Shown here one piece after another: positions 1 to 20,164 of a stretch of DNA of 64,000 nt. Within the stretch, counting starts at the first letter, position 1. Every line of letters starts with the position of its first letter. The position numbers were made by a program, and so were the translations under genes. The stretch is from Crateriforma spongiae (GTDB lineage: Bacteria > Planctomycetota > Planctomycetia > Pirellulales > Pirellulaceae): NCBI RefSeq assembly GCF_012290005.1, contig NZ_JAAXMS010000003.1, forward strand, positions 434,001 to 498,000, given 5' to 3'. Below the pieces are notes generated by a model. It was not told the origin of the DNA. It saw only the letters and a program-made list of their open reading frames with translations, and made no database searches.

Positions 1-231
1 CGGATGCCCCGTGTCGATCAGCTTTTTGGACACACTGACCGAGTCACCTTGGGCGGCGAAGGTGTCGGCCGCACGCTGGCGGTGGTGCCGGCTGAGGGTC
101 TTGCGGGTTCCCGGCCAGCGGATACGAAGTCGTACCGCGGTGGTCTCCGCCTGCAATCGATCGGCGGGCGTCCGAGTCGATTGCGGGGACTCCGTCGGGG
201 TGACCGGTGTCAAAGTGGTCGTGGTGGTCAT
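1..231 (-). CDS. Unrecognised protein, N-terminal 77 residues, cut by the left window edge
   Basis: The frame opens with an ATG at 231 and stays open to base 1, so the C-terminus is outside the window. The visible part begins with a Thr-rich stretch (MTTTTTLTP), then a basic segment with RIRWPG and KTLSRHH, and ends with VSVSKKLIDTGHP. I cannot assign a family. It is the last visible gene of the minus-strand series that starts with the DUF1257 gene, and a hairpin with a U-rich tail separates it from the lipoprotein gene before it. Codon use and strand fit a real gene; function is unknown. Confidence 0.6.
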   Translation of the reverse strand, partial: MTTTTTLTPVTPTESPQSTRTPADRLQAETTAVRLRIRWPGTRKTLSRHHRQRAADTFAAQGDSVSVSKKLIDTGHP

Positions 232-261
232 GTTTCGATTTCCAGTGGAAGCATCAAGGCA

Positions 262-306
262 ATAAGAAACGCCCGGCTCGCTTTGGAAAACAAGGCAAAC
301 CGGGCG
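262..306 (-). terminator. Hairpin with U-rich tail between lipoprotein gene and the edge gene
   Basis: On the minus strand CGCCCGG (306-300) pairs with CCGGGCG (276-270), and the transcript then reads UUUCUUAUU. The loop is long (23 nt) with some internal pairing. It may be a rho-independent terminator or an attenuator, since another gene of the same strand starts 39 bp further on. Confidence 0.45.
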
Positions 307-347
307 TCGCAACAAGGTGGGAGAAAGAACACTCCGCACACGCGGAG

Positions 348-773
348 TCATTCCAGTCGTCGGGTCCGTTTCGGATCGACCAAGAGTTGGGGCGAATCGT
401 TGGACAGGTCATCAATCAGTGCGTCACAGATCGCACCCTCGGCCGGTTCGCGTGGTTTAGGCCAGAGCAGAACACCGATCAAAATCAGCGGAAGGCAGCA
501 GGCCAACAACGCGACGGATCCGCCGATCGCCTGAGCGATGATCGGATCGCTGCGTTCGCGTTCATCCCATCGCCGCCGGTCGGCCTCCAGTTCGTCACGC
601 CGTGCGTTCAGGTCGTCGGTCTGTCGAAGCAGGGTTTGTCGTTCGTCGACCACGGACGCCTGGACGTCCAACACAGAGTCGACTTGGGACTGGGTCAGCC
701 CAGACGGTTCGTCCAGGCACCCGATTGAACCCATCGCTAACAGACTAAGCGTGAGCAGGATCGTCGCTCGCAT
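348..773 (-). CDS. Predicted lipoprotein with coiled coil and one membrane segment
   Basis: About 141 residues. The N-terminus is a lipoprotein signal, with lipobox LAMGSIGC and the acylated Cys near residue 19. A Gln/Glu/Arg-rich stretch (roughly residues 30-80, with TLLRQTDDLNARRDEL) looks like coiled coil. A hydrophobic segment with ALLACCLPLILIGVLLW follows, then an acidic tail. The first in-frame codon is TTG at 785; I chose the second ATG (773) because GAGG lies 6 nt before it, and ATG 776 is also possible. The start overlaps the end of the upstream small membrane protein by 29 bp, so the two are probably translationally coupled. The layout suggests an envelope-spanning or phage-spanin-like protein, which is only a guess. 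Confidence 0.6.
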   Translation of the reverse strand: MRATILLTLSLLAMGSIGCLDEPSGLTQSQVDSVLDVQASVVDERQTLLRQTDDLNARRDELEADRRRWDERERSDPIIAQAIGGSVALLACCLPLILIGVLLWPKPREPAEGAICDALIDDLSNDSPQLLVDPKRTRRLE

Positions 774-963
774 CATCGTCCTCAACTTGAAAAGGGGGCT
801 GGGAGTCGGTCGAGATCACACGATGAAGTAGATTCATCAACGTCAATCGTCTCCGACGTTCGGTCATCGCGACCCACAGGGCGACTGCTAACGCGAAGGC
901 CAGCAGCAGCACCAGGATCAGGGAAAGTTGCAAGGTTTGGACTCCTTCAAAAGGGCTTATCAT
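745..963 (-). CDS. Small single-pass membrane protein
   Basis: 72 residues: a short N-terminus, one long hydrophobic helix (about residues 12-33, LSLILVLLLAFALAVALWVA), a basic cluster ERRRRL that predicts a cytoplasmic C-terminus, and an acidic tail. It starts 30 bp after the AAA ATPase stop and its end overlaps the lipoprotein gene, so it sits inside the operon. No family recognised. Small size makes the call moderate; position and overlap are the main support. Confidence 0.5.
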   Translation of the reverse strand: MISPFEGVQTLQLSLILVLLLAFALAVALWVAMTERRRRLTLMNLLHRVISTDSQPPFQVEDDDASDDPAHA

Positions 964-993
964 CGAGGTCGAACGGAACCAATCCGCAGACCG

Positions 994-2478
994 TTAATTC
1001 AGCGAAGGCTTGGAAGAAACACCCCGACGGCGTTTCGGCTGGGCCGACGCCGGGTGGCGATAGACGCCACCGACATCGGCGGATAAACAACGTCCGCTGG
1101 CCCATTGACGTAGCGACTCGATCGCTTCGCCTGAGGTGGCGGCAATCGGAACGATGTGCCGGGCGGCTTCGACCAACGTCAGTTGCAACAACGCCGCCAA
1201 GCGACAACAAGCCAAGATCTCCGCACCGGTCCAATCCCGGTCTTCGGGACAGGGCTGTGCGTCGTCGATGGCAAATCGCTGTCGATACAGTGTCCAGATG
1301 GCGTCCTTCTGCTCCCGGCCGGGAAGGTCAAGAAAGAACACGCCGTCGAACCGCTCGGCACGGCTGAATTCCGGCGGCAAGCGGCGAACATCGTTGGCCG
1401 TGCACACGACGAATGCATCGGATGTGTGGTCGTTCAGCCAAGTCAGAAAGGTGCCGAACATCCGTGAAGCCACGCCACCATCGTTGACACCGCCTTGGAT
1501 GCCGGCGAAGGCTTTCTCGACCTCATCGATCATCACCACACAAGGTGCCATCGCGTCGATGGTCGCCAGGGCCTGTCGGGTACGTTCTTCGGATTGTCCG
1601 ACAAGGGACCCCAACAGACTGCCGACGTCCAAGATCAACACGGGGCGACCGGTCTCGGCACCCAGTGTTTTACAAAAAGCGGACTTGCCACATCCCGGTG
1701 GCGAAAGCAGCAAGACGCCCTTGGCCGGCACTTGCCTCGGTCCCCCATTGCCGATCGCTCGACGGGTGAACGACTTCAATGCATCCAGGCCACCGAGTTG
1801 GTCGAAGCGTTCTTGTCCACGGTGCAGCGACAGAAGTCCGCCGTCCCGCAGTGTTTGGGTCTTCAGCTCCCACAACGTATCGGGCTGCAGTCGACCGTGA
1901 CGGACCAGCGAGAGTGCGAACGCGTTCTCCGCTTCCAATCGGGTCAATCCGGCGGCTGCATCGATGACGCGTTGCAAGTCATTGCCAGCGGGCATTTCAC
2001 CCGACTCGGTGGCCGTTCCGGCGGCGATCGCTTGCAACTGTTCCCGATCGGGCAATTCGTGATCGATGACAACGAACAATCGCTGCAGTTCGATCGGCAA
2101 TTGAACCAATGGGGCAAGGATCACCAGGATCGTCCGTCGCGTCCTACCTTCGGCGACCGCGCGGGCGACCGCTTGGATGATCTCGGGCGACTGAAGAAAA
2201 CGATGAAAGTTCTTCAAGATCAGCAGCGAAGCGGAATGCTCATCGGCCAACGCTGAAAGAACGTGGACGGCTGAAAGTGGGTCAGCCGCCTCGGCTTGCA
2301 GCGGTGAGTCCGAAGCCGAGCGTAGGCCTCGGTCGATGTCCCAAATCGCCAACGTCCATTGCTGGTCGCGGCACAGCGTGGACATCTCGGCAATGGCGTC
2401 GTCGTGTTCGTGACTTCGGATCCAGATGCCGGAAAAGCACGCCTGGACCCTTTCACGAACGGGGTCGGTAAGTGTCAT
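994..2478 (-). CDS. AAA ATPase of the Ycf46 type
   Basis: 494 residues. The N-terminal half (1-220) matches the non-catalytic half of Ycf46-like ATPases. The AAA module follows: Walker A PPGCGKS at 260-266, Walker B MIDEV at 316-320, a second-region stretch SRMFGTFLTWL, and RFDGVFFLDLP with the arginine-finger region. These match Ycf46, known from cyanobacteria, plastids and several other bacteria and without a settled function. Start ATG 2478 has AAGGAA 8 nt upstream. DUF2997 and DUF1257 genes lie upstream, which is also a cyanobacterial association (Ycf35 is DUF1257). Role inferred only as an ATP-driven remodeller of a partner protein, perhaps encoded in the same cluster. A hairpin terminator or attenuator sits just before it. 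Confidence 0.85.
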   Translation of the reverse strand: MTLTDPVRERVQACFSGIWIRSHEHDDAIAEMSTLCRDQQWTLAIWDIDRGLRSASDSPLQAEAADPLSAVHVLSALADEHSASLLILKNFHRFLQSPEIIQAVARAVAEGRTRRTILVILAPLVQLPIELQRLFVVIDHELPDREQLQAIAAGTATESGEMPAGNDLQRVIDAAAGLTRLEAENAFALSLVRHGRLQPDTLWELKTQTLRDGGLLSLHRGQERFDQLGGLDALKSFTRRAIGNGGPRQVPAKGVLLLSPPGCGKSAFCKTLGAETGRPVLILDVGSLLGSLVGQSEERTRQALATIDAMAPCVVMIDEVEKAFAGIQGGVNDGGVASRMFGTFLTWLNDHTSDAFVVCTANDVRRLPPEFSRAERFDGVFFLDLPGREQKDAIWTLYRQRFAIDDAQPCPEDRDWTGAEILACCRLAALLQLTLVEAARHIVPIAATSGEAIESLRQWASGRCLSADVGGVYRHPASAQPKRRRGVSSKPSLN

Positions 2479-2507
2479 CTATCGTGATTCCTTTTGTAGC
2501 AAGGTGG

Positions 2508-2555
2508 ATAAATTCAAAAGAAAAGCCCGGCAAGCAAATCAATGTTGCCGGGCTT
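2508..2555 (-). terminator. Strong rho-independent-type hairpin after the DUF2997 gene
   Basis: On the minus strand AAGCCCGGCAA (2555-2545) pairs perfectly with TTGCCGGGCTT (2533-2523) around an 11-nt loop, followed by UUCUUUUGAAUUU. The stem overlaps the last codons of DUF2997. Only about 45 bp remain before the AAA ATPase start, so this may attenuate rather than fully stop transcription, or the ATPase gene may have a promoter inside DUF2997. Confidence 0.7.
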
Positions 2556-2730
2556 GCTGTGACTGGGTCGCGTTCGTTTGGAAAAACTCGGCAGTCTTGG
2601 TTTCGTCGACGGCTTTGCCGAGAGTCTGCCGAAGGAACCGACTCGCTTCTTGGCAATCCCGGCCGACAAAGCCGTGGGCCTGCAGTCGAACCGAACCGTC
2701 CGGCGCGACCGTGATCTCGATCGTCTTCAT
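2539..2730 (-). CDS. DUF2997 family protein
   Basis: 63 residues, the usual size of DUF2997. The N-terminus MKTIEITVAPDGSV is typical: a short beta hairpin, then GFVGRDCQEASRFL with a conserved Cys and a Lys/Thr-rich end. The start codon overlaps the DUF1257 stop (ATGA, 2727-2730), showing translational coupling. DUF2997 is commonly next to DUF1257/Ycf35 genes in cyanobacteria and other bacteria. Function unknown. Confidence 0.8.
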   Translation of the reverse strand: MKTIEITVAPDGSVRLQAHGFVGRDCQEASRFLRQTLGKAVDETKTAEFFQTNATQSQQARQH

Positions 2731-3110
2731 GTGGAACCGCCTTCAGACGCGGTACCGACGCCGATCGTCAGCCGGATGGAACCGTCTGCCAGCGTTTGTT
2801 CCTGCACGGCGTGTCCGCTGCGTCTGGCTTCCAATGTGGCTTTTTCGACGGCATAGGCTTGCAGGAATTCGTCCAACCGCTGAGGCGCCCCCCATTTGCC
2901 GTTGTAGTTGTCGAAGCGGCCTTGGCCGGTCTTCAGGTCGAACACGGCGGGGTACCGCCAGTCTTGCAAACGCACGGCCAGGCCGTGCACTGTTTCGCTA
3001 AACAACTTGACATCACCGACGAACGGCTGTGGTAAACGCAAACGGCGGCAGCCGGCCTTTGCCGCGACGACGTCGCGGACTTGAGTCTCAATTGTCACCA
3101 CGTGTGACAT
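2727..3110 (-). CDS. DUF1257 (Ycf35-like) protein
   Basis: 127 residues from ATG 3110, chosen over the longer frame (to 3161) because MSHVVTIETQVRD is the typical family start and GGGGAG precedes it by about 10 nt. Further family-like parts are the stretch around FDLKTGQGRFDNYNGKWG and the C-terminal half rich in Thr/Arg. DUF1257 includes plastid Ycf35; function unknown. It is the first gene of the visible operon: DUF1257, DUF2997, Ycf46-like ATPase, small membrane protein, lipoprotein, edge gene. The stop overlaps the next start by 4 bp. Confidence 0.8.
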   Translation of the reverse strand: MSHVVTIETQVRDVVAAKAGCRRLRLPQPFVGDVKLFSETVHGLAVRLQDWRYPAVFDLKTGQGRFDNYNGKWGAPQRLDEFLQAYAVEKATLEARRSGHAVQEQTLADGSIRLTIGVGTASEGGST

Positions 3111-3400: not shown

Positions 3401-4144
3401 TTAGGATGGGCGTTCGCCAGACACGATGCGTTGCATCTTCTTAATTCGGTCGTAAGCGTCGTCGATCAGCGGGCGCAGTACCCGTAAGTCGTTCTCAACG
3501 GATTCCAAAGAGGCAGCGAATTCGTCCATATTGACGACATGTTGAAGTCGCTCCATAAACTTTGGATCGGCAATGATTTCAAGCTGCTCTTTGCTTTCCG
3601 CCAAAGCACGATGAGCGACTTTAATTACGTTCCCTGGGATCGGTGGCCGCTTCAATTTCGGTTTGCGGGATTTAACCAGGTCCAGCAACTTGGCGTGCGA
3701 TAGTTTTCCAGCGACGATTCGACGTAACAGTTCCAGCCGCTCCTTTCGTGCGGAAATCTTGGCGAGTGTCGCCATAATCTGCCAGCCGATCGAGCGTTTG
3801 CTGTCACACGCCATGTCTATTTCAAACTGATCAAAGACGGCAAGTCGACGTATTCCCGCGTTGTATGCCCGAAACAGGTCGCCCGAATCAGACGGGATTT
3901 CCCACGATCGCTTCTTCGTCACGGCCATTGCAATTGTATTGTTAACCGCCAAGCGGACCGCTGGATCATGGCCAGTTGCCGCCAGTAGCGCAGCTGCTTC
4001 GCAAGCGATCTGGTAAACATCGGCAAGCGTGCCTGCCTCGTAAAGCCGTATCCACTTGGAAAGATGTTGGGTTGCGTGGACGTACTTGTACTCTCGCGAC
4101 TTGCCGATAAGTTCGCCGAGGTACAGATCATCATTCAGGGCCAT
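3401..4144 (-). CDS. Unrecognised 247-aa helical protein
   Basis: Starts MALNDDLYLG and ends VSGERPS. The sequence is rich in alternating hydrophobic and charged residues and reads as all-helical, with a basic middle part (KLLDLVKSRKPKLKRPP) and a C-terminal amphipathic helix. No signal peptide or membrane segment. The start has no good Shine-Dalgarno. It lies 370 bp left of the attachment repeat, between the repeat and the DUF1257 operon, and points the same way. I see no recombinase motifs in it, which matters because the left neighbour of the repeat could have been an integrase. Function unknown. Confidence 0.6.
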   Translation of the reverse strand: MALNDDLYLGELIGKSREYKYVHATQHLSKWIRLYEAGTLADVYQIACEAAALLAATGHDPAVRLAVNNTIAMAVTKKRSWEIPSDSGDLFRAYNAGIRRLAVFDQFEIDMACDSKRSIGWQIMATLAKISARKERLELLRRIVAGKLSHAKLLDLVKSRKPKLKRPPIPGNVIKVAHRALAESKEQLEIIADPKFMERLQHVVNMDEFAASLESVENDLRVLRPLIDDAYDRIKKMQRIVSGERPS

Positions 4145-4511
4145 GGAGATTAGCCGTTTGGCAAGAATGTCGGCAATGAAAGTAAGTTCGTACTAAGTGC
4201 CTCCGTATCTTAGCGTCCGCAGACGCCTCGGGGCACCCGGAGAGGCAATGGCCAAGAAGGAGTCGGCAGAGAGGCCGGGATTGATGTCGAACTTCAGGCC
4301 GACTTGCTGGCATTTGCGCTAGCGAGTCGCAGTCGTTGCGTTGTGTACGTGCGAGATCTCGGTGTGTCGAAAACTGGCAAAATTGGGGTGGCGAAAGATC
4401 AAAAAAACGACATTAGGTGCAGCAGATGCCAAGCGAATTTGGTAGGTTCGGCTGCGTGAACAGCGGGTTTTCAGCAGAAAAACCGGGGTTTGCTAAGGGA
4501 AAAGATGGTCC
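4145..4511. other. Intergenic stretch left of the attachment repeat
   Basis: 367 bp with no supported gene. I searched it for the missing 5' half of tRNA-Pro (acceptor CGGGGCG plus a D-arm) and found none. AT content seems raised around 4360-4420. Confidence 0.5.
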
Positions 4512-4557
4512 GTTCGGGACGTAGAGGTCGCTAGTTCGAATCTAGTCGCCCCGACTT
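4512..4557 (+). repeat. Left attachment repeat: 3' part of tRNA-Pro(CGG)
   Basis: 46 bp identical to 14697-14742. It reads as anticodon loop TTCGGGA (anticodon CGG, G37), anticodon stem 3' strand CGTAG, variable loop, a T-arm with 5-bp stem around TTCGAAT, and acceptor strand CGCCCCG plus A. The 5' half of the tRNA is not in front of it, and anticodon-stem pairing breaks after two base pairs, so this is not a functional tRNA. It marks the left end of the element. Confidence 0.85.
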
Positions 4558-4585
4558 TCTAAGTCGTTTAGCTTCAACGACTTAC

Positions 4586-4670
4586 GGGCCTTCCGAGACA
4601 GGCCCGAATTGGCCGGTTTGGTCCAGGCCTTTCTCTAGGCCCTCGCGGGCCTTCGGTACGGCGGGCCTAA
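4586..4670. repeat. Cluster of GGGCCT/AGGCCC motifs at the left element end
   Basis: At least five copies of GGGCCT(T/A) or its complement lie at about 4586, 4600, 4636, 4647 and 4664, the last one GGGCCTAA. The same motif clusters just inside the right end (14567-14655). Tyrosine integrases often bind short arm-type repeats inside both element ends, so these are candidate arm sites. Confidence 0.45.
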
Positions 4671-4954
4671 ATTTGTTTAGGGCTGGGCACCTCCGGCACG
4701 TGCCACTCCTCGGTATCCAAGCCGAATCGTCGTGCCGCTTCCGTCTCCTCCGACCAACCGGCCCGGATCTCCGCCGCCGCCCTCGCAATCTCCTCGGGGG
4801 GCGGGCAATAGGTCACCGAGTCAATTTCGGCTTGCGTAGGCCCCCCAGCAGCGTGCCTCGCATCGTTTCGGGGTGGACACAACGGCGGAGCCATGGGCCG
4901 TGCCGAGCGACGGGGAAACCGCCGCCCAGAGGTGACGGGTTTCGCCCGGATCAT
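4667..4954 (-). CDS. Small hypothetical protein at the left element end
   Basis: 95 residues from ATG 4954, whose A-T-G shares a base with the TGA of the upstream gene (TGATG-type coupling). The N-terminal 35 residues are Arg/Pro-rich. The C-terminal part is more typical of a folded small protein: PPPEEIARAAAEIRAGWS followed by ETEAARRFGLDTEEW, a helix with a conserved-looking W-S pair. Similar short 'EIARAAAEIRAGW' proteins occur in planctomycetes, as far as I recall. The start could instead be the internal ATG at 4894. Function unknown. Confidence 0.5.
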   Translation of the reverse strand: MIRAKPVTSGRRFPRRSARPMAPPLCPPRNDARHAAGGPTQAEIDSVTYCPPPEEIARAAAEIRAGWSEETEAARRFGLDTEEWHVPEVPSPKQI

Positions 4955-5439
4955 CACTTCCACTCCGGGATCTCGGGCAACCGGCGGTTGATCTCAACCC
5001 GTTCTTCGGCGGCACGTTGTTGGGCTTCAAGTTGAAGGCGCTCCCGGTGGCGGGCTTGTTGCCACTCGGGCAATCGCTCCTGCTTGATTATGATCATCCG
5101 GTCCAGTCGTTCAATATTCTTGGACCAAGCCTTGAGCTTCTCATAAGCCTCGTCAGGCGTCCGGTAGTACGCAGGCGAATCCGCATAGATAGCCTCAAGA
5201 CCTTGCAGCCCCCGCCGGACCTTGCGCGAATACAGCTTGTACTCTTCGATCTTACGCAAAGCGTACTCAATGAATGCCCGACTTCGCTCGTGGGGATCAT
5301 TCGGGGCCTCTTGCATTAGGCCATGTTCATGGTGGAAGACAGCCCCGTTGGCGAACAGCGTTCGGGAGGTGGTGTCGTCGTACAGTCTCGCGCCGTTGCG
5401 GGCAAAGAACTCTTCTTGTGTTTCGACTACTCGTGGCAT
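4954..5439 (-). CDS. Hypothetical protein downstream of the large terminase gene
   Basis: 161 residues, start ATG 5439 with AGGAG 9 nt upstream. The C-terminal half (about 75-160) is strongly helical and charged, with KLKAWSKNIERLDRM and long Glu/Arg/Gln runs typical of coiled coil. The N-terminus includes FFARNGARLYDDTTSRTLFANGAV. It begins 12 bp after the terminase stop in the same direction, so it is co-transcribed with the packaging genes. No capsid, portal or head-completion family is recognisable. Confidence 0.6.
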   Translation of the reverse strand: MPRVVETQEEFFARNGARLYDDTTSRTLFANGAVFHHEHGLMQEAPNDPHERSRAFIEYALRKIEEYKLYSRKVRRGLQGLEAIYADSPAYYRTPDEAYEKLKAWSKNIERLDRMIIIKQERLPEWQQARHRERLQLEAQQRAAEERVEINRRLPEIPEWK

Positions 5440-5451
5440 AACAGCATTCTC

Positions 5452-6876
5452 CTAAAACATAGAAACAGTGGGGCGAGCCTTTCGACCCGCGATATCAAAT
5501 CCGACGTACAGCGCATTAACGAACGCAGACGCCAAGTCACCGTGCCCCGTTTCGTCGCGGGGACTCACGAGGCGAAATCCAAACGAACGTTCCTCGATTC
5601 GAAGATGAACCAGCTCATGCCTTAGCACCCGGTCTTCGTAGAGCGTCACGCGACGATCGGTAAAGGCTTCGATTAACCGCGAAGCCATGTCACGGAGATT
5701 CGCACCGCTGGGCACGACTGGTAACAAGTCAACTCGCCGGAGATCGTAGGAAAGACGCTGGGCGAGTAGTTCGGCCTGCCAAGGATCGTAGGCGATGGTG
5801 TCGAGACCATAGACTTGGCAACACCGCCTTAACTCTTGCTCTACGTCCATCAGATCGACGGTCTTTCCCGGTCGCGGTTTCCATCGCTTGGTGTGAAGCA
5901 ACCGGAACCGTTTCGCATTCGGCGTATCGTTTTCACCGATGCCCAGCACAGCGACAGCACTCGCGTCACGCTTCACCCCAAGGTCAACACCGGCAACGCA
6001 CGTATAGCCCCTCAGCCGATTCCCGATCGGGAAGGCTGCGCCGTCAAACGCGGCCTCGATATCCTCGCTCGTCAGGGCATCGCCGCCGCCGGTCGACCAT
6101 TCGTTCAACCACAGCCGAGCGAAAGACACACCCGGCAACAGTCGTCGCTGTTCGTCAAGTCGATCCTCCGTCATCCAAGAGGCTTCCGGGCCGTTAAGAC
6201 GGCGGAAGATCCAAGAAGAATCGGAGCGAATTGATTCCCTCAACTTCCATTGCCACGTTTCTTGCCACCCGGCATTTGCGATCCCGAACATCAGGCAATT
6301 CCGACGCTTCGCAGCCGAGGAAATGAGCGACGCCCACAACGCTTCGGATGAATCTCCCCAGTGCGTTATCTCGTCGAACACGATCGCATCGGGCAGAATC
6401 CCGTAAGAAGACCCAACGTCCGAAGTCTCAATGGCCAGGTAAGAATCGTAGCCAGGCGAATCCGAAACGTTCGTTACTCGGGCGCGATCAACTTGCAACC
6501 ACGCTCCCAACCAAGGATTCAACCGGGTCAACGTCAGTATCGCATCCCGGAGCAACATCGCTTGATCTTTGTCGGCGGCATAGGCATAAAGCCTCAATGG
6601 CCGAGTCGCGAACGCCAGCATGTACGTCACCACTACGGCGATGTCGGTTGTTTTGCTGTGGCCGCGGGGTCTTTCGAAGAACGCCCGCATTGTTTCAGGA
6701 CGCTTGCCGCGACCTAGGCACGCCATCACGAGAGGATCAAGCAACTTGTAGTCGTCACGCTGCCACGGGTCGGCGACATCTCCGAGGCGTCGAGGCGTAC
6801 CGTCAACGTCAACAACAAGTTCATCACGAAACGCAGCGGGATTCGAGGCATATAGCCTCAGCTTGTCAACGTTCAT
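5452..6876 (-). CDS. Phage terminase large subunit
   Basis: 474 residues from ATG 6876, chosen because GGAGGA lies 8 nt upstream; the frame is open further to 6966. A Walker A-like loop RPRGHSKTT is at 69-77 and Walker B AIVFDEI at 165-171, followed by THW as in terminase ATPases. The RNase H-like nuclease half starts near VAGVDLGVKRDAS (Asp about 298), continues with IAYDPWQ and ends with DETGHGDLASAF. These order as ATP motor then headful/cos nuclease, the enzyme that pumps DNA into a procapsid. The start overlaps the small-subunit stop by 11 bp. Notably no portal or capsid gene follows. Confidence 0.85.
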   Translation of the reverse strand: MNVDKLRLYASNPAAFRDELVVDVDGTPRRLGDVADPWQRDDYKLLDPLVMACLGRGKRPETMRAFFERPRGHSKTTDIAVVVTYMLAFATRPLRLYAYAADKDQAMLLRDAILTLTRLNPWLGAWLQVDRARVTNVSDSPGYDSYLAIETSDVGSSYGILPDAIVFDEITHWGDSSEALWASLISSAAKRRNCLMFGIANAGWQETWQWKLRESIRSDSSWIFRRLNGPEASWMTEDRLDEQRRLLPGVSFARLWLNEWSTGGGDALTSEDIEAAFDGAAFPIGNRLRGYTCVAGVDLGVKRDASAVAVLGIGENDTPNAKRFRLLHTKRWKPRPGKTVDLMDVEQELRRCCQVYGLDTIAYDPWQAELLAQRLSYDLRRVDLLPVVPSGANLRDMASRLIEAFTDRRVTLYEDRVLRHELVHLRIEERSFGFRLVSPRDETGHGDLASAFVNALYVGFDIAGRKARPTVSMF

Positions 6877-7303
6877 CGCTTCGGTCCTCCGGCGTATCAG
6901 CGGGTTCATACTCGACGTCAGCGGGAAGCTTCGCATACCAATTGAGGTCTGCGGGGGCACGGTCAAGACCGATGGTCTTGGCTAGTCCTGAGAGGGAATT
7001 CATAGCCTGGACCCAACGGCCAATCACTTCATCTGTTTCAAGTTCGCCGGAGATGACCTTTTGTTCTAGGTCTTGCAGAAGGGCCTCAAGAAAAACAAAT
7101 CGCTCGATGACTGCGTTGCGAACATGGGAAATCGCTCCCTCGCCCCCCAGGTCTCGAACAATCGACTCATAGTTAGATCGCAACTGTTTGGCGACGGCGT
7201 AACGAGCGTCAAGAGTCTCAAGAAAGCCGGTTGTGAATTTAGCTGGTAGCTTGTTTGGCTTATGGCTCTTGTTCTTTCGCGTGCCTTTAGATACTCGGGG
7301 CAT
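6866..7303 (-). CDS. Phage terminase small subunit-like protein
   Basis: 145 residues: a basic N-terminus (KGTRKNKSHKPNK), a central helical region with FVFLEALLQDLEQKV, then WVQAMNSLSGLAKTIGL, which is typical of P27/terminase small-subunit-like proteins, and an acidic tail. It directly precedes and overlaps the large terminase gene. The assignment rests on position plus this general pattern. Small subunits recognise the packaging site on DNA, so this gene may decide which DNA is packaged. Confidence 0.7.
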   Translation of the reverse strand: MPRVSKGTRKNKSHKPNKLPAKFTTGFLETLDARYAVAKQLRSNYESIVRDLGGEGAISHVRNAVIERFVFLEALLQDLEQKVISGELETDEVIGRWVQAMNSLSGLAKTIGLDRAPADLNWYAKLPADVEYEPADTPEDRSDER

Positions 7304-7522
7304 CGTCGGTCGGGCCTCCTCGATAGGCGTTGGGAATACACCTAGGGAATCTAAGACCGATCGGCCTCATGCGCTACTCGCATTTACTGGCTATCTTATG
7401 GGTATTTCGGGGGTACTTTGCTAGAGGCCCTAGGCCGTGCGGTAAGGCTTTCGGGCGATCCCCCAACGCCTCGTGCTTTACGCCCGGAAAGTCGTGCGAG
7501 ACGGTGCGATAGGTGCCTTATC
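7304..7522. other. Non-coding gap between terminase and recombinase genes
   Basis: 219 bp with no supported gene. It should contain the promoter for the small terminase gene. CCTAGG is present near 7430. No clear hairpin terminator for the serine recombinase was found. Confidence 0.35.
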
Positions 7523-8155
7523 TCATGGATTCCCGGCGGGTTCAAGAATCCCGGCCTCCCGGAGCACCGAATACACGGTCGGGCGACTCACCCGGACGGC
7601 CCGAGCGACGGCGGTTATGGTTTGGCCCGATTTGTAAAACTCAACAATGGCCTTGTGTGTGTCGGCGTTGACTGTGCGGCGGACGCCCTTTTTGGAGCCG
7701 CCCCACCGCTTACCATTTGCCCTAGCTACTGCCTGCCCAGCTTTGACACGCTCGCCCCTAACTTCGGTCTCGTACTGGGCGACGGATGCTAACACGTTCG
7801 CCATGAGCCGACCTGCTGGTGTTGATAGGTCAAGGCCGTCCCTTACCGAGACAAGATTGATCTTTCTGGCATTCAAATCTTCAAAAAGTGCCGTTAATCC
7901 CGAGGCCGTTCGCCCTAGTCGATCTAATCGCCATACGACAATCCGTGAGACTTTCCCTGCCCTGGCATCACGTTCTAAACGTTCCCATTCCGGTCGGCTC
8001 ATTGACTTCCCAGACGCCTTATCCTCAAACCATTTCACATCACCATCCAGGCTCTTGATATAGGACTCTAGGTCCGGCTTTTGGGAAGCAGTGTCCTGGT
8101 TATTAGAAGAAACACGACAGTAGACCGCAGTAAACTTGCTCATCTCAGTTATCAT
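7523..8155 (-). CDS. Serine recombinase (resolvase/invertase family)
   Basis: 210 residues, the normal length of small serine recombinases. The catalytic region has YCRVSS with Ser16 as probable nucleophile, the arginine motif VVWRLDRLGRTASGL, and the typical LSTPAGRLMANVLASVAQYE before the long E helix. The C-terminus is a helix-turn-helix, with ITAVARAVRVSRPTVYSVLRE. It may resolve multimers, invert DNA or act as a second recombination system beside the tyrosine integrase. ATG 8155 is used; ATG 8143 (MSKFTAVY) is an equal alternative. It is divergent from the protease-like gene across a 353-bp intergenic region. Confidence 0.9.
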   Translation of the reverse strand: MITEMSKFTAVYCRVSSNNQDTASQKPDLESYIKSLDGDVKWFEDKASGKSMSRPEWERLERDARAGKVSRIVVWRLDRLGRTASGLTALFEDLNARKINLVSVRDGLDLSTPAGRLMANVLASVAQYETEVRGERVKAGQAVARANGKRWGGSKKGVRRTVNADTHKAIVEFYKSGQTITAVARAVRVSRPTVYSVLREAGILEPAGNP

Positions 8156-8508
8156 AGTAAGAGTCGAAACCTCATAACACGAACCGTTTCCTTATAGCGT
8201 AAAACCTATGCGCCGTAAACTACGGTTTATAGGTCGGGCTTTACGGATCAAGGCCGTCTCGGAATCTCTCTACGGCGCACTCTCCGCCTGAGGCAATGCC
8301 GTATAGCGTATATCGCACCCTTATGGGTTCGGCTCGAATCGAGGGTTGATAACTACGGCCTAGGAAGCCCGGTCTCAGTCTTATAGCCCTCAGTTTATTT
8401 ACTGGCCGAAAGAGTAGCGCAGGTATGGGGCTTGCAGTTATAAGGAAAATGTAGGGTCCCGCTTACCCTCTTTGAGTGCGTTCCACCTCTTCGTCGCGAG
8501 AGACAGAC
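8156..8508. promoter_or_regulatory. Divergent intergenic region with repeated TATAG-type motifs
   Basis: 353 bp between divergent genes. TATAGCGTA occurs twice (near 8193 and 8302), and related TTATAG/TATAAG motifs lie near 8228, 8382 and 8440. CCGTAAA (near 8212) is mirrored by TTTACGG (near 8240). This could be a control region with operators and/or a resolvase site for the neighbouring serine recombinase. Confidence 0.4.
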
Positions 8509-9342
8509 ATGTTCCCGTTTCAATCATCCTTCGACCACCAATTCGACCGATTCACCGACGCTGCCGAAAGCCTAGTCGCGAACTCCCGACCCACGCAAAT
8601 CGCCGCCAATCTTGCCGCCTCCGTCACGTTGGCAGACCTAGATGGCCGCGAGTACCTAGTTGCGCCTGTCACGATGGTCCGCGAACAAGTCCTTCATGGC
8701 TCGACTGGCCCCATGTTTTATCCCTCGTCAGTGCTTCAGAGCCGAGTTGAACGTTGGAATGGCGTGCCCCTCGTACTCAACCACCCCAAAGCCAGTCACG
8801 GCTACGTCTCCGCCCGCTCTCCCGACGTTCTCGAAGAACACAGCCTAGGGCACGTCTTCAATGCCCGTTTCGTTGGCAATGCGATCAAGGCCGAGGCGTG
8901 GTTTGATGTTCGTCGCACCCAGCGTCTAGCCCCCGATGTCTACCAGCGAGTCGCCTCCGGCCAGCCCGTCGAATTATCTACCGGCCTATTCACAAGGGCC
9001 GTTAACCGTCCTGGCAAGTTCAAAGGCCGTCCGTTTTCCCACCGACTTGTCGACTACGACGCAGACCACTTTGCAATTCTCCCCCAAGCCAAAGGAGCTT
9101 GTTCCGTGAAAGATGGATGTGGTGTTTCCGTGAATTCGTTCGTCCCCAGCGAACAACCGCTAGTCGCCCCGACGTTGAATTTCAGCGCATCGGACCGCGA
9201 CCCCCAGTTGACCAGCAACGACTCATCGGGGCCGCTCGTAGCACCCGTGTTGGACTTTTCCGACTGTCGTGTCGAGGGTCGTCCCACGATCAACCACCGA
9301 GCCGTTGAGGCGCCCTTGGTCGCACCCAAGTTGGATTTTTAG
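8509..9342 (+). CDS. DUF2213-type prohead protease-like protein with C-terminal PLVAPxLDF repeats
   Basis: 277 residues from ATG 8509; the longer frame begins with a GTG at 8476. The first 200 residues match phage DUF2213 proteins: VPLVLNHPK (His about 92), a GQPVELSTGL stretch (Ser about 157) and DYDADHFAILPQAKGAC, which supply the expected His and Ser positions. This family is found in head operons, where members process scaffold or capsid. The last 60 residues carry PLVAPTLNF, PLVAPVLDF and PLVAPKLDF at 217-225, 242-250 and 269-277, the last ending the protein. No capsid or scaffold gene is next to it, so its substrate may come from another phage. Confidence 0.65.
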   Translation: MFPFQSSFDHQFDRFTDAAESLVANSRPTQIAANLAASVTLADLDGREYLVAPVTMVREQVLHGSTGPMFYPSSVLQSRVERWNGVPLVLNHPKASHGYVSARSPDVLEEHSLGHVFNARFVGNAIKAEAWFDVRRTQRLAPDVYQRVASGQPVELSTGLFTRAVNRPGKFKGRPFSHRLVDYDADHFAILPQAKGACSVKDGCGVSVNSFVPSEQPLVAPTLNFSASDRDPQLTSNDSSGPLVAPVLDFSDCRVEGRPTINHRAVEAPLVAPKLDF

Positions 9343-9591
9343 ACGCTTTAGCGTGGAGGCTTAACCAAGTGTCCCGTAGGCGGATGCGATCCCCACCTGT
9401 AGTCAGTTTTTTAGCGGCGGTCATAGTAACCGTAAAAGCGGTTAATGGCTGCGTGGAGTCCAGAGTGTCGTTAGGGGGTGTTGAGTGCGCCGTTTCGTTG
9501 ACATGAAAGCATTTTTCCGTACAGTTATTGCATGTCGCCTGCCAGGACGTTAGGCGGGCTCGTTTAAGAAGTGCCTGTAAAGGAATTTTTC
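9343..9591. other. Short intergenic region
   Basis: 249 bp between two plus-strand genes. TTGACATGAAAGCATTT near 9498 followed by a TATTGC stretch near 9525 could be a sigma70-type promoter for the small gene at 9592. Low certainty. Confidence 0.3.
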
Positions 9592-9786
9592 ATGGCATCC
9601 CCAATTCAGGTCACACTAGTGACCGCCCTCGAAGACCTCGGATTTCAGCGTAAAGAACCTGACGCTGGTGCGCCGCTTGGTGGCCCAGCCGAGGTAGAGG
9701 TCACGGAAAAGACGCTTGAGGGCCTGAAGGGCCTGATTGGCAAGACGGTCGAAGTGGATTCCGGCGGCAAGGTATCCGTCGTCTAG
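9592..9786 (+). CDS. Small acidic hypothetical protein
   Basis: 64 residues from ATG 9592, with TAAAGGAA ending about 7 nt upstream; the frame is open to GTG 9571. The N-terminus SPIQVTLVTALEDLGF is followed by a Gly/Pro-rich linker and EKTLEGLKGLIGKTVEVDSGGKV. A strong terminator follows 30 bp after the stop. No family recognised. The good ribosome binding site and own terminator make it a real gene, perhaps a small regulator. Confidence 0.6.
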   Translation: MASPIQVTLVTALEDLGFQRKEPDAGAPLGGPAEVEVTEKTLEGLKGLIGKTVEVDSGGKVSVV

Positions 9787-9815
9787 CTGGTATCTTCTGG
9801 TATCGACCTGCGTTG

Positions 9816-9845
9816 CCGACCGCTTTCGAGCGGTCGGTTTTTCTT
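9816..9845 (+). terminator. Rho-independent terminator
   Basis: CCGACCGCT pairs with AGCGGTCGG around a TTCG tetraloop, followed directly by TTTTTCTTT. Ends transcription of the small gene at 9592-9786. Confidence 0.9.
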
Positions 9846-9984
9846 TGGGCTACATTTCACTCGATCTTAGGTGGTTGCTAGCCTCGTTCGACGCTTAGTG
9901 GGATCGACAGGCCTTTGTGCCCAATCCAAAACGGAAGGGCACCGGGGATCTTTACTATTGCCCGGTTTCTTCCCGCTTCGCCGG

Positions 9985-10203
9985 TCAGTCGTTCAATTCC
10001 GCGAGTCGTTCAAGGATCGCCCCCTCAACCTCCCGCAGTTTGAACAGATACACTCGGACTTCCTCGATGTCCTTCAATGGCCCCCCCGCGTCCATACGGT
10101 CCATCTCGTCCGTCACGTAGATTTGGCACTTGCCGATGGCGTCACGAGTGAAGTCAAGCCACATCTGCAACCAGGCCCGGCGAATACTATTCTCCGGTGT
10201 CAT
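9985..10203 (-). CDS. Small hypothetical protein coupled to the zinc-ribbon gene
   Basis: 72 residues from ATG 10203, with GGAG about 10 nt upstream; the frame begins with a TTG at 10218. It reads as mostly helical: RRAWLQMWLDFTRDAIGK, then IEEVRVYLFKLREVEGAIL. The start lies inside the last codons of the upstream zinc-ribbon gene, so both are translated from one mRNA. It may be a replication accessory protein, but only context suggests this. Confidence 0.5.
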   Translation of the reverse strand: MTPENSIRRAWLQMWLDFTRDAIGKCQIYVTDEMDRMDAGGPLKDIEEVRVYLFKLREVEGAILERLAELND

Positions 10204-10747
10204 GATCCGTCTCCACAAACGTGTCAGCGATACCTAGTTCTTCGAGCAGCCCCATTTTGAAGGCGGCTTCGCGTTGACACTGGCGGCGGAAGTGGGCACC
10301 GATTTCCGGCGGCACTAGACCGACCACTGCAAGGTTTTCGAAAAGCTCCATTGCATCCGTAACTTTCCGAACTTGGGCATCCGTTGATGCGTGGTCGCCC
10401 ACGTCCCGCCACCATCGCTTCCAGACCTCGTTCGGTGAGAGGTCCGGGTATGACCCCGCCCCGCTTTGTCCTGAAGGAAGAGATCCAGAGGTGGTTGCGT
10501 CAAAGTCCTTGCGAAATTCGGCGATCAACTGCTTTCGTTCGTCCGGGTTCAAGTCCGGTCGGAGTTTCGTAGCGAGATCCATCGCGTCACCCCACTTGTC
10601 GCAGTTCCAGCACTTAAACTTGATTGCGTAATCGCGTTTTGGTGGACGCACTTTGAGTTGCGCCTCGTTGCACCAGGGACAAACCCATTGTTTTCGGGCT
10701 GTCGGTCTTCCTATCAGCTTGGTTGCTACGTATTCGAGAAATATCAT
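10187..10747 (-). CDS. Zinc-ribbon, primase-like replication protein
   Basis: 186 residues. Near the N-terminus WVCPWCN and FKCWNCDKWGDAMDLATKL form a four-Cys zinc ribbon of the CHC2/primase type. The rest is helical and acidic with no visible TOPRIM or other catalytic domain, and is too short for a full primase. It follows the DUF3631 helicase gene on the same strand, so the pair probably starts replication of the element. An alternative is a zinc-ribbon regulatory protein. The 68-bp gap to the helicase gene contains a perfect 22-bp GC palindrome. Confidence 0.55.
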   Translation of the reverse strand: MIFLEYVATKLIGRPTARKQWVCPWCNEAQLKVRPPKRDYAIKFKCWNCDKWGDAMDLATKLRPDLNPDERKQLIAEFRKDFDATTSGSLPSGQSGAGSYPDLSPNEVWKRWWRDVGDHASTDAQVRKVTDAMELFENLAVVGLVPPEIGAHFRRQCQREAAFKMGLLEELGIADTFVETDHDTGE

Positions 10748-10792
10748 TTAATTGATCCATATAGGATGTGTTATCTAAAGAGGTCGGCTAGG

Positions 10793-10814
10793 CCGGCCGG
10801 GCCGGCCCGGCCGG
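10793..10814. repeat. Perfect 22-bp all-GC palindrome
   Basis: CCGGCCGGGCC followed by its exact reverse complement, sitting 1 bp after the helicase stop codon. No T-run follows on either strand, so it is not a standard terminator. It could be a protein-binding site, a cruciform-forming element or part of a replication origin. Confidence 0.75.
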
Positions 10815-10815
10815 G

Positions 10816-12036
10816 TTACGGAGAAGGGGTACGGGGGGCGTACCGTTCCCATGTCGAATCAAAATCGTGAGCCCAGTAGCCCCGTTTTCTGCGAGTCCGA
10901 TCCCGGCTGGATCGAATTCCGTAGGGTCGGAGCAATCGTGCGATCGCGTCTGCCGAAATTGGCCGTCCGCTTGAAAAACGCTGCCACTCTTCTTCTTCCC
11001 GAGCGACGAGTTTTCGAATTAGGTTTTTGGTAAGCAAAAACTTCCCGCCGTTCTCATCAGGCTTGACGCGGTCGAAGATTTCGCGTGCCGCAATCAGCAA
11101 CTTGACGCCCGGTGTAGAGAGTTCGGCTTGCCGGTCCTGCTCTTCCAACTCGAACACAAATCGCCGAAGTGCTGGCAACGATTCTTCGTCGTCGACCATC
11201 ACCACGGATTGGAGTGGCAACATCAACTCGGCCATTCGGTCGTTCGCGATATCGAACTCATCGGTGGTGTCATAGGCTTCCGCGACCCGCCCGGCGTGAT
11301 CCGTACACCACGCTACGATGCTCTCTCGCACCTTTTCCGCGTCCGGTTCGACCACTCGTGACCGAAACCTCGTGACCGAATCGTCGGCCGTCTTACGGGC
11401 CAAGCGAACCTCCACGCATCGGTCGGCAAGAACGCCGTCCAAGTTGCCGATGAGGGCGACGACTTTGGGCGAGTACACGCGGAACTGGACGATCTCATCA
11501 TTCCGGTCGCCACCGACCCGATGGACGGCAGCGTTCCGGTCGATCGCGGCGCAAAAGATCTCTTGAATCGCGATAGAGTTTTCGGAACCCTGACGACTTA
11601 ACGATTGCGCTTCGTCCATGATCAGTGTCGGCTTTTTCTCTTCGATCAGCCGATAGACTACGGCGGGCGACATGTTCGATGTCATCACCGCTTCCCGACT
11701 CAGCAACTCGATGAGTTGCAAGCACCGAGTCTTTCCGCATCGCTTTTCCGGACTCGTGATCGCCAGATGGGGAAAACGATCAAACGAATCAATGATGTGC
11801 GAAGCTAGTATCCAGCTCGCCATCACGATCCGAGCGTCATCCGGCATGACGATATAGGTGCCGATGAAATCAGCCACCGTCCGGACAATCGAGGCCGTCC
11901 CCCCTCGGGCAACCCGGCCGACCCGGCCTACCCGGCCTTTGGCGGTTCGCTTGGGCTTTCGTTTCCGAGTTTTCCTTTCAGGACCAGGCGGGGCGGGGTT
12001 TACCTCCGGCTGCTTCTTGGTTTTCCGTTTAACCAT
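10816..12036 (-). CDS. DUF3631-type helicase/ATPase
   Basis: 406 residues from ATG 12036, chosen because GGAGGA precedes it by 9 nt and the stop of the upstream gene overlaps here. The N-terminal 45 residues are very basic, with a GRVGRVGRVARGG repeat. The ATPase follows: Walker A SPEKRCGKTR at about 94-103, Walker B LIMDEAQ at about 138-144, then a sensor region VVALIGNLDGVLADRCVEVRL. The C-terminal part carries the DUF3631 extension with a WHTH-like LLRPYGIRSSRDR. DUF3631 proteins are phage or plasmid replicative helicase-like ATPases. This is the main replication gene of the element. Confidence 0.75.
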   Translation of the reverse strand: MVKRKTKKQPEVNPAPPGPERKTRKRKPKRTAKGRVGRVGRVARGGTASIVRTVADFIGTYIVMPDDARIVMASWILASHIIDSFDRFPHLAITSPEKRCGKTRCLQLIELLSREAVMTSNMSPAVVYRLIEEKKPTLIMDEAQSLSRQGSENSIAIQEIFCAAIDRNAAVHRVGGDRNDEIVQFRVYSPKVVALIGNLDGVLADRCVEVRLARKTADDSVTRFRSRVVEPDAEKVRESIVAWCTDHAGRVAEAYDTTDEFDIANDRMAELMLPLQSVVMVDDEESLPALRRFVFELEEQDRQAELSTPGVKLLIAAREIFDRVKPDENGGKFLLTKNLIRKLVAREEEEWQRFSSGRPISADAIARLLRPYGIRSSRDRTRRKRGYWAHDFDSTWERYAPRTPSP

Positions 12037-12223
12037 CGCGGCGGTCCTCCGTGCGTCGAAGTTCACGTTCGGTCGCATCGCGACAGATAAAGACAATCCG
12101 AATGCCGAACCGCTCGGCTAATCGACGATTGCAGGATCGTTCAAGTTTTTTGTCACCGTTCAAATGGGCGACTCGGGCCAAAGCGACAAGCCTTGACGCA
12201 TCAACGGGTAATTTGGCTTTCAT
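12029..12223 (-). CDS. Small basic protein preceding the helicase gene
   Basis: 64 residues from ATG 12223 with GGAGGTG ideally placed 7 nt upstream. The sequence is basic and helical: ASRLVALARVAHLNGDKKLERSCNRRLAERFGIRIVFI. It overlaps the helicase start by 8 bp. No helix-turn-helix could be confirmed. It may be a small DNA-binding or replication accessory protein. Confidence 0.55.
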   Translation of the reverse strand: MKAKLPVDASRLVALARVAHLNGDKKLERSCNRRLAERFGIRIVFICRDATERELRRTEDRRDG

Positions 12224-12265
12224 GAAATACACCTCCGAATTGGCGAGTACAAAGCCTTCGTAAAT

Positions 12266-12369
12266 CCGGCGGTAAGTAAGCGTCCACGCACGAAAAAAGC
12301 CGCGAAACGGCGTGTCTCGCGGCCTACGGGCGTGTTTCGGCGGTAAGTGGATCGGAACCGGCGGTAAGT
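12266..12369 (+). repeat. Three direct repeats (C)CGGCGGTAAGT
   Basis: CCGGCGGTAAGT at 12266-12277 and 12358-12369, and CGGCGGTAAGT at 12338-12348. The last two start 21 bp apart (copy to copy), about two helical turns. They lie in the gap before the replication genes. Candidate iterons or operators. Confidence 0.55.
12291..12323 (-). terminator. Rho-independent terminator after the 204-aa gene
   Basis: On the minus strand GCCGCGA (12323-12317) pairs with TCGCGGC (12305-12299), then TTTTTTCG follows. It separates the gene at 12369-12983 from the replication genes. Confidence 0.7.
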
Positions 12370-12983
12370 TACCGGCGGTCGGCTTGGTAGAGTTTCCGAG
12401 CGGCCATGATGGTTTCCGTCCAACACGGGGTCTGCTTCACGGCGGCATCCGTTACGCCAAACTTCTCACCCCACATCTTCGCGGTCCAGTGGATCCGATC
12501 GGGATGTTTTTGGATGGCTTCCGCTAGTCGTTGGTTGGTTTTGCCCTTTCCCCGTGTCGACGACTTGCCTTGCCTTCGAGCGACCGTCTCGGCTTTCGAT
12601 TTCGCCAAGGCCCGCAAAACGTCAAGAGCATCGTCGACCGATTCAATCTTGCTGTCGGCACCCTCGGGCATAGTGCTGCGCAAGTCACGGCGGATAGCAC
12701 CAACCATCAGCTCGATTCTCGGCCCGATGGCATCCTTCATGACCTTCCATGGGATACAATCGCTCCAATCGCGGACCCACACGAAGAGAGCTTCAGGCCC
12801 TTCTGGTATGTCGAAGACTTGTACCACGAAGATTTTTCGGAGATAACTCAACGTGTCCTCGTCAACGTGGTAGTACTCGCCAACCCGGTAACCTATACCA
12901 AGGCTTCCGATCCGGACGGTATGGCCATGCTCGTCTACGATCTTTCTTAATTTCCGCTTGCAGACCTTACAAAGGATCAACAT
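12369..12983 (-). CDS. Hypothetical protein with N-terminal Cys pair and C-terminal HTH-like region
   Basis: 204 residues, start ATG 12983 with GGAG 8 nt upstream. The N-terminus LILCKVCKRKLRK could be half of a zinc site. The C-terminal 60 residues follow a basic, Ser/Lys/Gly-rich linker and include RLAEAIQKHPDRIHWTAK followed by KFGVTDAAVKQTPCW, which resembles a winged helix. This would suit a transcriptional or copy-number regulator. It lies between the integrase and the replication genes, with direct repeats right behind its stop that could be its target. Confidence 0.5.
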   Translation of the reverse strand: MLILCKVCKRKLRKIVDEHGHTVRIGSLGIGYRVGEYYHVDEDTLSYLRKIFVVQVFDIPEGPEALFVWVRDWSDCIPWKVMKDAIGPRIELMVGAIRRDLRSTMPEGADSKIESVDDALDVLRALAKSKAETVARRQGKSSTRGKGKTNQRLAEAIQKHPDRIHWTAKMWGEKFGVTDAAVKQTPCWTETIMAARKLYQADRR

Positions 12984-13153
12984 CCTTCGTTCTCCAGTAA
13001 ACGTTCCAGGGTAAAAGCGGCGGAGGGCAACCGGCCTGGATATCCGGCGTTTGGGAGCGACCCTAGCCCTCGCCGTAGCTATCCCAATTTTACCCGAAGG
13101 GTGCGTGGACTACCGATCTCCGCCCAGTAAATAGCGTTTAGAGAGTCTATAGA

Positions 13154-19666: not shown

Positions 19667-20164
19667 CAAACGCTCGTTTCGAATCTGCGGATTGAATCGC
19701 TAGGGCGGGATAGTCCGTTAGGGTGGGTGGTTCAGGATAAATAGAAAGTTCTTGTTGCGAAAGGATGAAGTGATGAAGTAGGAGGCTTTGCCAACGAGTC
19801 AGCCAGACAACTTCATCGCGAGTGTCCGCTCTCTCTGGGGCGGAACGGATTCATCTGACGCCGGCCCCGTCCAGGCGTAACTCAGTCCCCCAGGTCGATA
19901 CGAACCCAGTTGGGGCAAAGCGGTCTGCTCAGCCAATCACGCTTCGCCCATGCCATGCGCGGCCTGCATCGTGGCGTTCCTGCTGTCGACCTTGGACGCG
20001 TTAGGGGGCAGCCGTCTTTTTCGGCTCGCGGGAGCGTTGAGCGGGCGGGAAGCGTCAGGGGAGGCCAAGGTGACGCGCGCGGCGACACTACCGGTCATCG
20101 CCCGCGAATCAAGTCACCAATGCCACGATGGGTCCCCCAAGCGTTCGCCCTTTGTTTTGACCGC
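19667..20164. other. Intergenic region, 498 bp
   Basis: No convincing gene. Around 20025-20080 the sequence reads GCTCGCGGGAGCGTTGAGCG and similar GC-rich short motifs, which may be a dispersed planctomycete repeat; this is from memory and unverified. The left part should hold the promoter of the large surface protein. Confidence 0.35.

Follow-up and report, generated by a model that had tools for sequence, protein, structure and literature searches.

In this study, we describe a 64,000-nucleotide stretch of the Crateriforma spongiae genome (the window; contig C3:434001-498000), at whose left edge six minus-strand genes form one operon. They encode an AAA+ ATPase of the Ycf46 type, the small proteins DUF1257 and DUF2997, a membrane protein, a lipoprotein and a protein formerly listed as unknown, which is DUF3150-like according to its orthologs and their fold. 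With moderate confidence we read this copy as a mobile AAA+ module in its minimal, Rhodopirellula-type form, which consists of a motor core plus the membrane pair and lacks an end set; in it the ATPase would act as a general remodelling motor. A preliminary description of the six genes had proposed one coupled, ATPase-driven and envelope-linked series, possibly on a mobile element and perhaps related to defence, stress or secretion. Its coupled ATPase-driven series is borne out by the six genes themselves and by a core order that is the same in all 35 complete loci compared. Its gene inventory was correct for these six genes and overlooked the DUF3150-like identity, two further operon genes and the ubiquitin-like or clamp-like end sets of relatives.

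All six open reading frames (ORFs) are intact, and the sixth crosses the window edge. Leftwards from the gene for DUF1257 (Ycf35-like; 2727-3110, 127 amino acids (aa)) follow those for DUF2997 (2539-2730, 63 aa), the ATPase (994-2478, 494 aa), the small membrane protein with its single N-terminal hydrophobic stretch (745-963, 72 aa), the lipoprotein (348-785) and the DUF3150-like protein (320 aa), of which the 5' end lies in the window (1-231). The spacing is operon-like: in the same order, a 4-nucleotide (nt) overlap, gaps of 60 and 30 nt, an overlap of about 41 nt and a gap of 116 nt. From the whole genome we took the stretch to the left of the window (L001), into which the operon extends by 1.4 kb. 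There the DUF3150-like gene (L001:15269-16231) reaches C3:433269, and two further minus-strand genes join the series, u99 (L001:14963-15262, 99 aa), 6 nt past it, and u139 (L001:14554-14973, 139 aa), which overlaps u99 by 11 nt. The next gene encodes an IS5-type transposase. The names u99, u71, u139, E2-RING, Ubl, clamp-like and NDIEFL are working names coined in this analysis.

The ATPase, which we take to be Ycf46-type, scores 86.1 bits against the Pfam AAA family (PF00004, cut-off 21.2, expect value (E) 3.7e-24) and thus carries a classical AAA domain. Its nearest PDB chains by sequence are p97/Cdc48-type ATPases, which indicates only a classical-clade AAA domain. The likeness to phage proteins is colinear over the full length, since residues 5-480, the N-terminal part included, align with phrog_8638 (E 5.7e-85). 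An alignment of 37 orthologs shows preserved nucleotide-binding motifs (Walker A SPPGCGKS or GxPGxGKS, a Walker B ending in DE, and the arginine region). The pore-loop position reads SLVG in the 29 of 37 orthologs whose form is listed; because this motif has no aromatic residue, remodelling fits better than threading. DUF2997 lies well above its Pfam cut-off (PF11211, 53.8 against 24.1 bits). DUF1257 falls marginally below (PF06868, E 3.8e-4, 21.1 against 22.2 bits), its relative in Rhizobium phage RHph_I4 reaching 37.1; a search of the whole C. spongiae genome for this family gave no match, the operon's own protein scoring marginally under the cut-off.

Concerning the sixth gene, a profile of the planctomycete family finds a plasmid ortholog (L073, E 9.3e-57), and this plasmid protein exceeds the DUF3150 cut-off of Pfam (35.3 against 24.9 bits). 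The ortholog of Rhodopirellula baltica was modelled with a predicted local distance difference test (pLDDT) score of 89.6, and among viral proteins the fold of the model best matches one from a phage that is annotated as DUF3150 (E 1.7e-15, template modelling scores 0.73/0.78). A PDB fold search with the same model gave nothing at E up to 0.001, and a PDB sequence search with the DUF3150-like protein gave nothing useful. Elsewhere, DUF3150 or a relative sits between MoxR or ATP-binding genes and VWA genes, namely in Synechococcus phage MinM2 and on Cupriavidus and Burkholderia plasmids. One protein family is therefore common to two types of AAA+ sets, and the module appears to be an AAA+ remodelling machine of mobile elements that parallels the MoxR sets. 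Among the operon proteins none matches a MoxR-type or VWA family above cut-off, so that the likeness to MoxR concerns the way of working only.

Orthologs of the ATPase were sought in 147 related genomes, hits being counted at no less than 50% identity over at least 425 residues. There are 67 such hits in 39 genomes, patchily distributed and frequently in several copies. For comparison of gene content we used 38 loci, the C. spongiae locus and 37 of 40 relatives' loci picked by their ATPase; the distant loci L070-L072 (32-34% identity) were left out, and L069 ends at a contig edge. DUF1257 and DUF2997 are present in all 38 loci, the DUF3150-like gene and u99 in 35 each, u71, a short protein with a putative helix-turn-helix, in 32 and u139 in 14. 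The order DUF1257-DUF2997-AAA-DUF3150-u99 is identical in all 35 loci with the five genes when scored by stop codons (31 of 35 when scored by ORF starts). A second set was picked by the DUF3150-like gene. It holds 84 loci, four of them viral contigs, and its named genomes include R. baltica BR-MGV, R. europaea 6C, R. maiorica SM1 and Blastopirellula marina DSM 3645. Of its 37 loci with long flanks, all have u99, 34 the ATPase and 32 each DUF1257 and DUF2997. The additional genes are hence linked to the trio in other genomes too, and the cluster is patchy rather than core and fixed in position. In the single same-genus genome searched there is no ortholog, and synteny with the window stops at 20,096. 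Eight multi-copy genomes contain 24 copies; for eight of these the nearest relative belongs to a different genome, at up to 90% identity. Beside more distant Ycf46-type ATPases we observed radical-SAM-like (4Fe-4S) genes (L071 7990-8586, L076 and L077).

The module is also found on plasmids and in phages. A Candidatus Manganitrophus plasmid carries AAA-DUF1257-DUF2997-DUF3150-u99, and Tunturiibacter phage Tunturi_3 has all five core genes. Aeromonas phage HJ05, phage RHph_I4 and Rhodobacter phage RcDurkin encode the ATPase, a 208-230-aa protein, DUF1257, DUF2997 and a relative of u99, the last being a weak match in RcDurkin (E 5e-3). On the Geminocystis plasmid pGM3709_04 the ATPase (34% identity, 95% coverage), DUF1257 and DUF2997 families all lie within 3.4 kb. 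We examined 89 viral records, of which 80 are IMG/VR contigs chosen by the phage ATPase. The trio of ATPase, DUF1257 and DUF2997 is present in 51 of these 80 contigs, with u99 in 31, and DUF3150 is present in 12. Together with the patchy, multi-copy spread and the nearby recombinases, these occurrences speak for the mobility that the preliminary description had considered possible.

In planctomycetes, the operon often ends in one of two further sets. After u71, 14 of the 38 loci carry a complete set made up of a ubiquitin-like protein (Ubl), E2-RING, JAB and a ThiF-type E1; the set is all-or-none save for one JAB-only locus. In the R. maiorica locus (L093), u71 and a JAB gene lie between u99 and u139 and the remainder is missing. 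Ubl has about 73 aa, ends in KIEGA in 14 of 14 sequences (aligned from the second set) and scores 22.4 bits against Pfam ThiS, marginally below the cut-off of 22.5. E1 matches ThiF at 87.8 bits (cut-off 28.1), and JAB matches Prok-JAB at 28.0 bits in one copy (L101) and 23.3 in another (cut-off 25). In the E2-RING protein, HPHV and a Cys that comes after it are both invariant. The model of this protein (pLDDT 84.9) finds mainly E2 enzymes in Foldseek, none at E 0.001. A VIA-align 2 comparison with UBE2S gives Z 8.5 over 120 residues (root mean square deviation 3.2), with unrelated helical rows reaching a similar Z on a different part. Its Cys-rich end resembles RING proteins weakly (best E 0.0044), and a PDB search with the Ubl profile returned nothing relevant. 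The end set is a prokaryotic Ubl-conjugation set, with an E1, a JAB, an E2 fold with catalytic Cys and a Ubl with C-terminal Gly; its conjugating activity is predicted from these sequences and models.

A clamp-like protein ends the operon in eight other loci. Its profile matches DnaN (E 2.9e-6), and beta clamps make up 21 of the 23 chains listed, including two fusions; the protein itself has no match in Pfam. The Ubl set and the clamp-like protein never occur together in the 38 loci, with about three such cases expected (hypergeometric P 0.015). The second set has Ubl in 15 and the clamp-like protein in 13 of 37 loci, with one shared (P 0.003). Both P values are too small, as the loci are related.

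In C. spongiae, no Ubl, E1, E2 or JAB gene lies between u99 and u139, and E2-RING has no match in the whole genome, where Ubl, E1 and JAB were not sought. A recent loss of the Ubl set was rejected, as the same short DUF3150-u99-u139 end is found in L091, L092, L094, L095 and L098; because these five close relatives share it, the C. spongiae copy represents a subtype. Nor is the Ubl set a core part: E2-RING is near only 21 of the 67 ATPase hits, and for 24 of the 45 E2-RING hits no ATPase of this type lies within 8 kb, some contigs being short. In L081-L088 we noticed E2-RING/JAB/E1/Ubl sets that lack the ATPase, several of them directly following the gene for a large serine recombinase and a 207-243-aa gene that recurs.

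We favour the following model. The ATPase would form a ring and, like MoxR, remodel a protein complex. DUF1257 and DUF2997 may serve as adaptors, filling the co-chaperone role of the VWA protein in MoxR-VWA-DUF3150 sets, and the DUF3150-like protein with u99 might form the platform on which both kinds of motor act. Where the membrane pair exists, the cytoplasmic tail of the lipoprotein would dock the complex at the membrane. The likely setting is the upkeep of mobile DNA elements or conflicts between them; the benefit may fall to the element, by way of replication or counter-defence, or to the host, by way of defence. Several features point to client complexes at DNA: replication genes next to the phage trios, the clamp-like end set, nucleases of Cas4-like type in the flanks and a ligase-domain protein in one operon. 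The last protein lies between the ATPase and the DUF3150-like gene (L104:392-1453; ligase domain PF14743, E 4.4e-30); by eye, it and its counterpart in L157 (528-1598) also have a SWIM-like segment.

Several points weigh against this model. The remodelling function is predicted from genes, order, spread and motifs. The DUF3150-like protein of C. spongiae itself has no DUF3150 match in Pfam at E up to 1, and its operon contains no recognised DNA-linked gene. Sixteen of the 24 copies in multi-copy genomes are nearest to a copy in the same genome, which suits duplication as well as transfer. DUF3150 occurs in 15 of 57 viral records with the trio, and none of the 57 combines it with a replication neighbour, so that two functions may be involved. 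Finally, the cyanobacterial ties of Ycf46 to CO2 use and of Ycf35/DUF2997 to a ferredoxin gene do not suggest mobile DNA.

The alternative that survives best is a host anti-phage or conflict system, in which sensing or activation would fall to the core and the action to exchangeable effectors, such as Ubl conjugation or possibly an NDIEFL nuclease; we consider it somewhat unlikely. The C. spongiae copy would then be a core relying on effectors elsewhere, or a remnant. Planctomycete MoxR-vWA-FtsH conflict systems with Ubl, E2, RING, JAB and E1 have been described (Kaur et al. 2020, PMC7159879). The all-or-none Ubl set and the patchy, multi-copy spread fit such a system, and so does the NDIEFL gene, which starts VEGxNDIEFLRR (219 aa, e.g. 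L148:2948-3607). It is present in 24 loci, in one of them as two pieces, and lies between DUF2997 and AAA in 13. By its motif the NDIEFL protein may be TOPRIM-like; Pfam and a PDB profile search gave no match. The flanks were surveyed through 144 ORFs of at least 220 aa (140 distinct), of which 13 were omitted and four of the longest removed, leaving 123 proteins. PADLOC found eight Cas4-like proteins among them and one match each to pAgo, MTase_II, PD-T4-6 and Mads6; Pfam found Recombinase 13, Resolvase 12, PDDEXK_1 8 and Phage_integrase 4. However, the trio is carried by most of the IMG/VR contigs and by isolated phages such as RHph_I4, and in tailed phages it often stands beside DnaB. Moreover, PADLOC models match nothing past the shared AAA domain, the NCBIfam antiphage ATPase IteA scores 45.7 bits against a cut-off of 510, and the C. 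spongiae copy has no effector.

A second alternative is an accessory of phage or element DNA replication, whose task would be to load, unload or remove the complexes with which the carrier element replicates or recombines; planctomycete copies would then be domesticated or riding on elements. Among the 57 trio records, DnaB is nearby in 23 and a RepO/HTH gene in 30, as compared to five of the 32 records that lack the trio, and these neighbours span eight of 17 viral lineages defined at 50% identity. Searches with the phage RepO-like and 190-aa neighbours returned no hits. The clamp-like end set and the ligase-domain protein of L104 would likewise suit replication. However, about half of the viral lineages have no replication neighbours, neighbourhood alone proves no function, and the operons with Ubl sets are on bacterial contigs, save one IMG/VR contig. 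We regard a replication accessory as improbable.

Quite unlikely, in our estimate, is also a bolder form of the remodelling idea, a mobile AAA+ machine with a swappable arm that would clear or rebuild protein complexes on DNA. It would correspond in prokaryotes to the triangle that ubiquitin, a p97-type ATPase and the sliding clamp form in eukaryotes. The arm would be either the full E1/E2-RING/Ubl/JAB cascade or the beta-clamp-like protein, and a bare core, as in C. spongiae, would use host or phage targets.

A housekeeping role as an assembly factor, of the sort put forward for Ycf46 and Ycf35 of cyanobacteria in photosynthesis and the use of CO2 and favoured by the cyanobacterial literature, is very improbable, given near-complete orthologs in just 39 of the 147 genomes, the multiple copies and the viral occurrence. 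The envelope-linked stress or secretion system of the preliminary description hardly survives either: the membrane protein is present in 19 and the lipoprotein in 20 of the 38 loci (before DUF1257 in 15, between AAA and DUF3150 in four), and the lipoprotein has a conserved cytoplasmic tail, but the pair is optional and occurs in only one of the 89 viral records. That record (L169), a putative viral, planctomycete-like contig, is also the only one with u71, the Ubl set and the NDIEFL gene. The layout of the lipoprotein, a lipid-anchored N-terminus, a coiled stretch, a second hydrophobic stretch and the conserved C-terminal tail, comes from the alignment, its topology being judged by eye. Nothing supports a link to secretion, and the 25 Pfam families most often matched by the 123 flanking proteins include none for secretion or stress. 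An envelope function is weakly supported as the core theme.

Other features near the operon comprise a prophage-like remnant (window 3401-14554) with genes for a terminase large subunit (5452-6966), a serine resolvase (7523-8155), a DUF2213 protein (8476-9342, plus strand), a DUF3631 protein (10816-12096) and a tyrosine integrase (13154-14554); no capsid gene was recognised there. Terminase, resolvase and integrase are 2-11 kb from the operon, and no element ends were found around the operon. That the module belongs to this cluster was rejected, as the 40 relatives' loci show one distant integrase hit and no terminase; the terminase, the resolvase and the other cluster proteins found nothing in the 89 viral records. 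To the left of the window lies an integron-like cassette array (C3 about 401,500-431,100; L001 1-13100 and L002 1505-2845), the operon being beyond its end. The array has repeated elements of 98-110 nt between small ORFs, a tyrosine recombinase that looks integron-integrase-like by eye (L002:1505-2845) and a Mom-type DNA modification gene (L001:6660-7163, minus strand, Pfam Mom 182.9 bits).

Our literature searches found no paper on DUF3150 and, for DUF1257 and DUF2997, no title concerning such a module. Among known systems, the MoxR-DUF3150-VWA sets of phages and conjugative plasmids share with the module a DUF3150-family gene beside an AAA+ ATPase gene on mobile elements; where those sets have MoxR and VWA, the module has a Ycf46-type AAA+ ATPase with DUF1257 and DUF2997, and it adds u99. 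The AAA+ plus S8 protease systems IetAS and SgiAT have a related AAA+ domain (PADLOC IetA, 2e-13 over the AAA part only). Membership in IetAS was rejected on this match and the IteA score given above, and the operon has no S8 protease gene. The cyanobacterial Ycf46, Ycf35 (DUF1257) and DUF2997 belong to the same three families. Ycf46 has been linked to CO2 use. In Synechocystis, DUF2997-ycf35 adjoin the ferredoxin gene fed7, whereas DUF3150 and u99 are not mentioned in the available part of that article (PMC4284462). Since isolated phages carry a version of the module, Ycf46/Ycf35-type function becomes testable outside photosynthesis.

Concerning the end sets, operon types 6a-6e of E1/E2/JAB/Ubl genes were described by Iyer et al. 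2006 (PMC1779556). As far as the available part of that paper allows comparison, the set of the relatives resembles them in its Ubl with invariant KIEGA end, its ThiF E1, its JAB and its E2. It differs in the fusion of E2 to a RING-like Cys-rich domain and in the partnership with a Ycf46-type motor; the C. spongiae locus has no such genes. The nearest published idea is that of Kaur et al. 2020, whose ternary MoxR-vWA-FtsH systems likewise couple an AAA+ motor to a full Ubl/E2/RING/JAB/E1 set in planctomycetes, as do the relatives of our module. In contrast, the module has no MoxR, vWA or FtsH pair, its Ubl gene is separate, its E2 forms one protein with the Cys-rich RING-like part, and the C. 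spongiae copy goes without the set. If the E2-RING coupling holds, it would supply a bacterial example in which tagging by a ubiquitin-like protein is coupled to an AAA+ motor. The module brings together in one testable machine five families about which little is understood (DUF1257, DUF2997, DUF3150, u99 and the Ycf46-type ATPase). Its core is more widespread than the family names suggest, its nearest kind are the MoxR-VWA-type AAA+ systems, and DUF3150 emerges as the part common to two different AAA+ motors.

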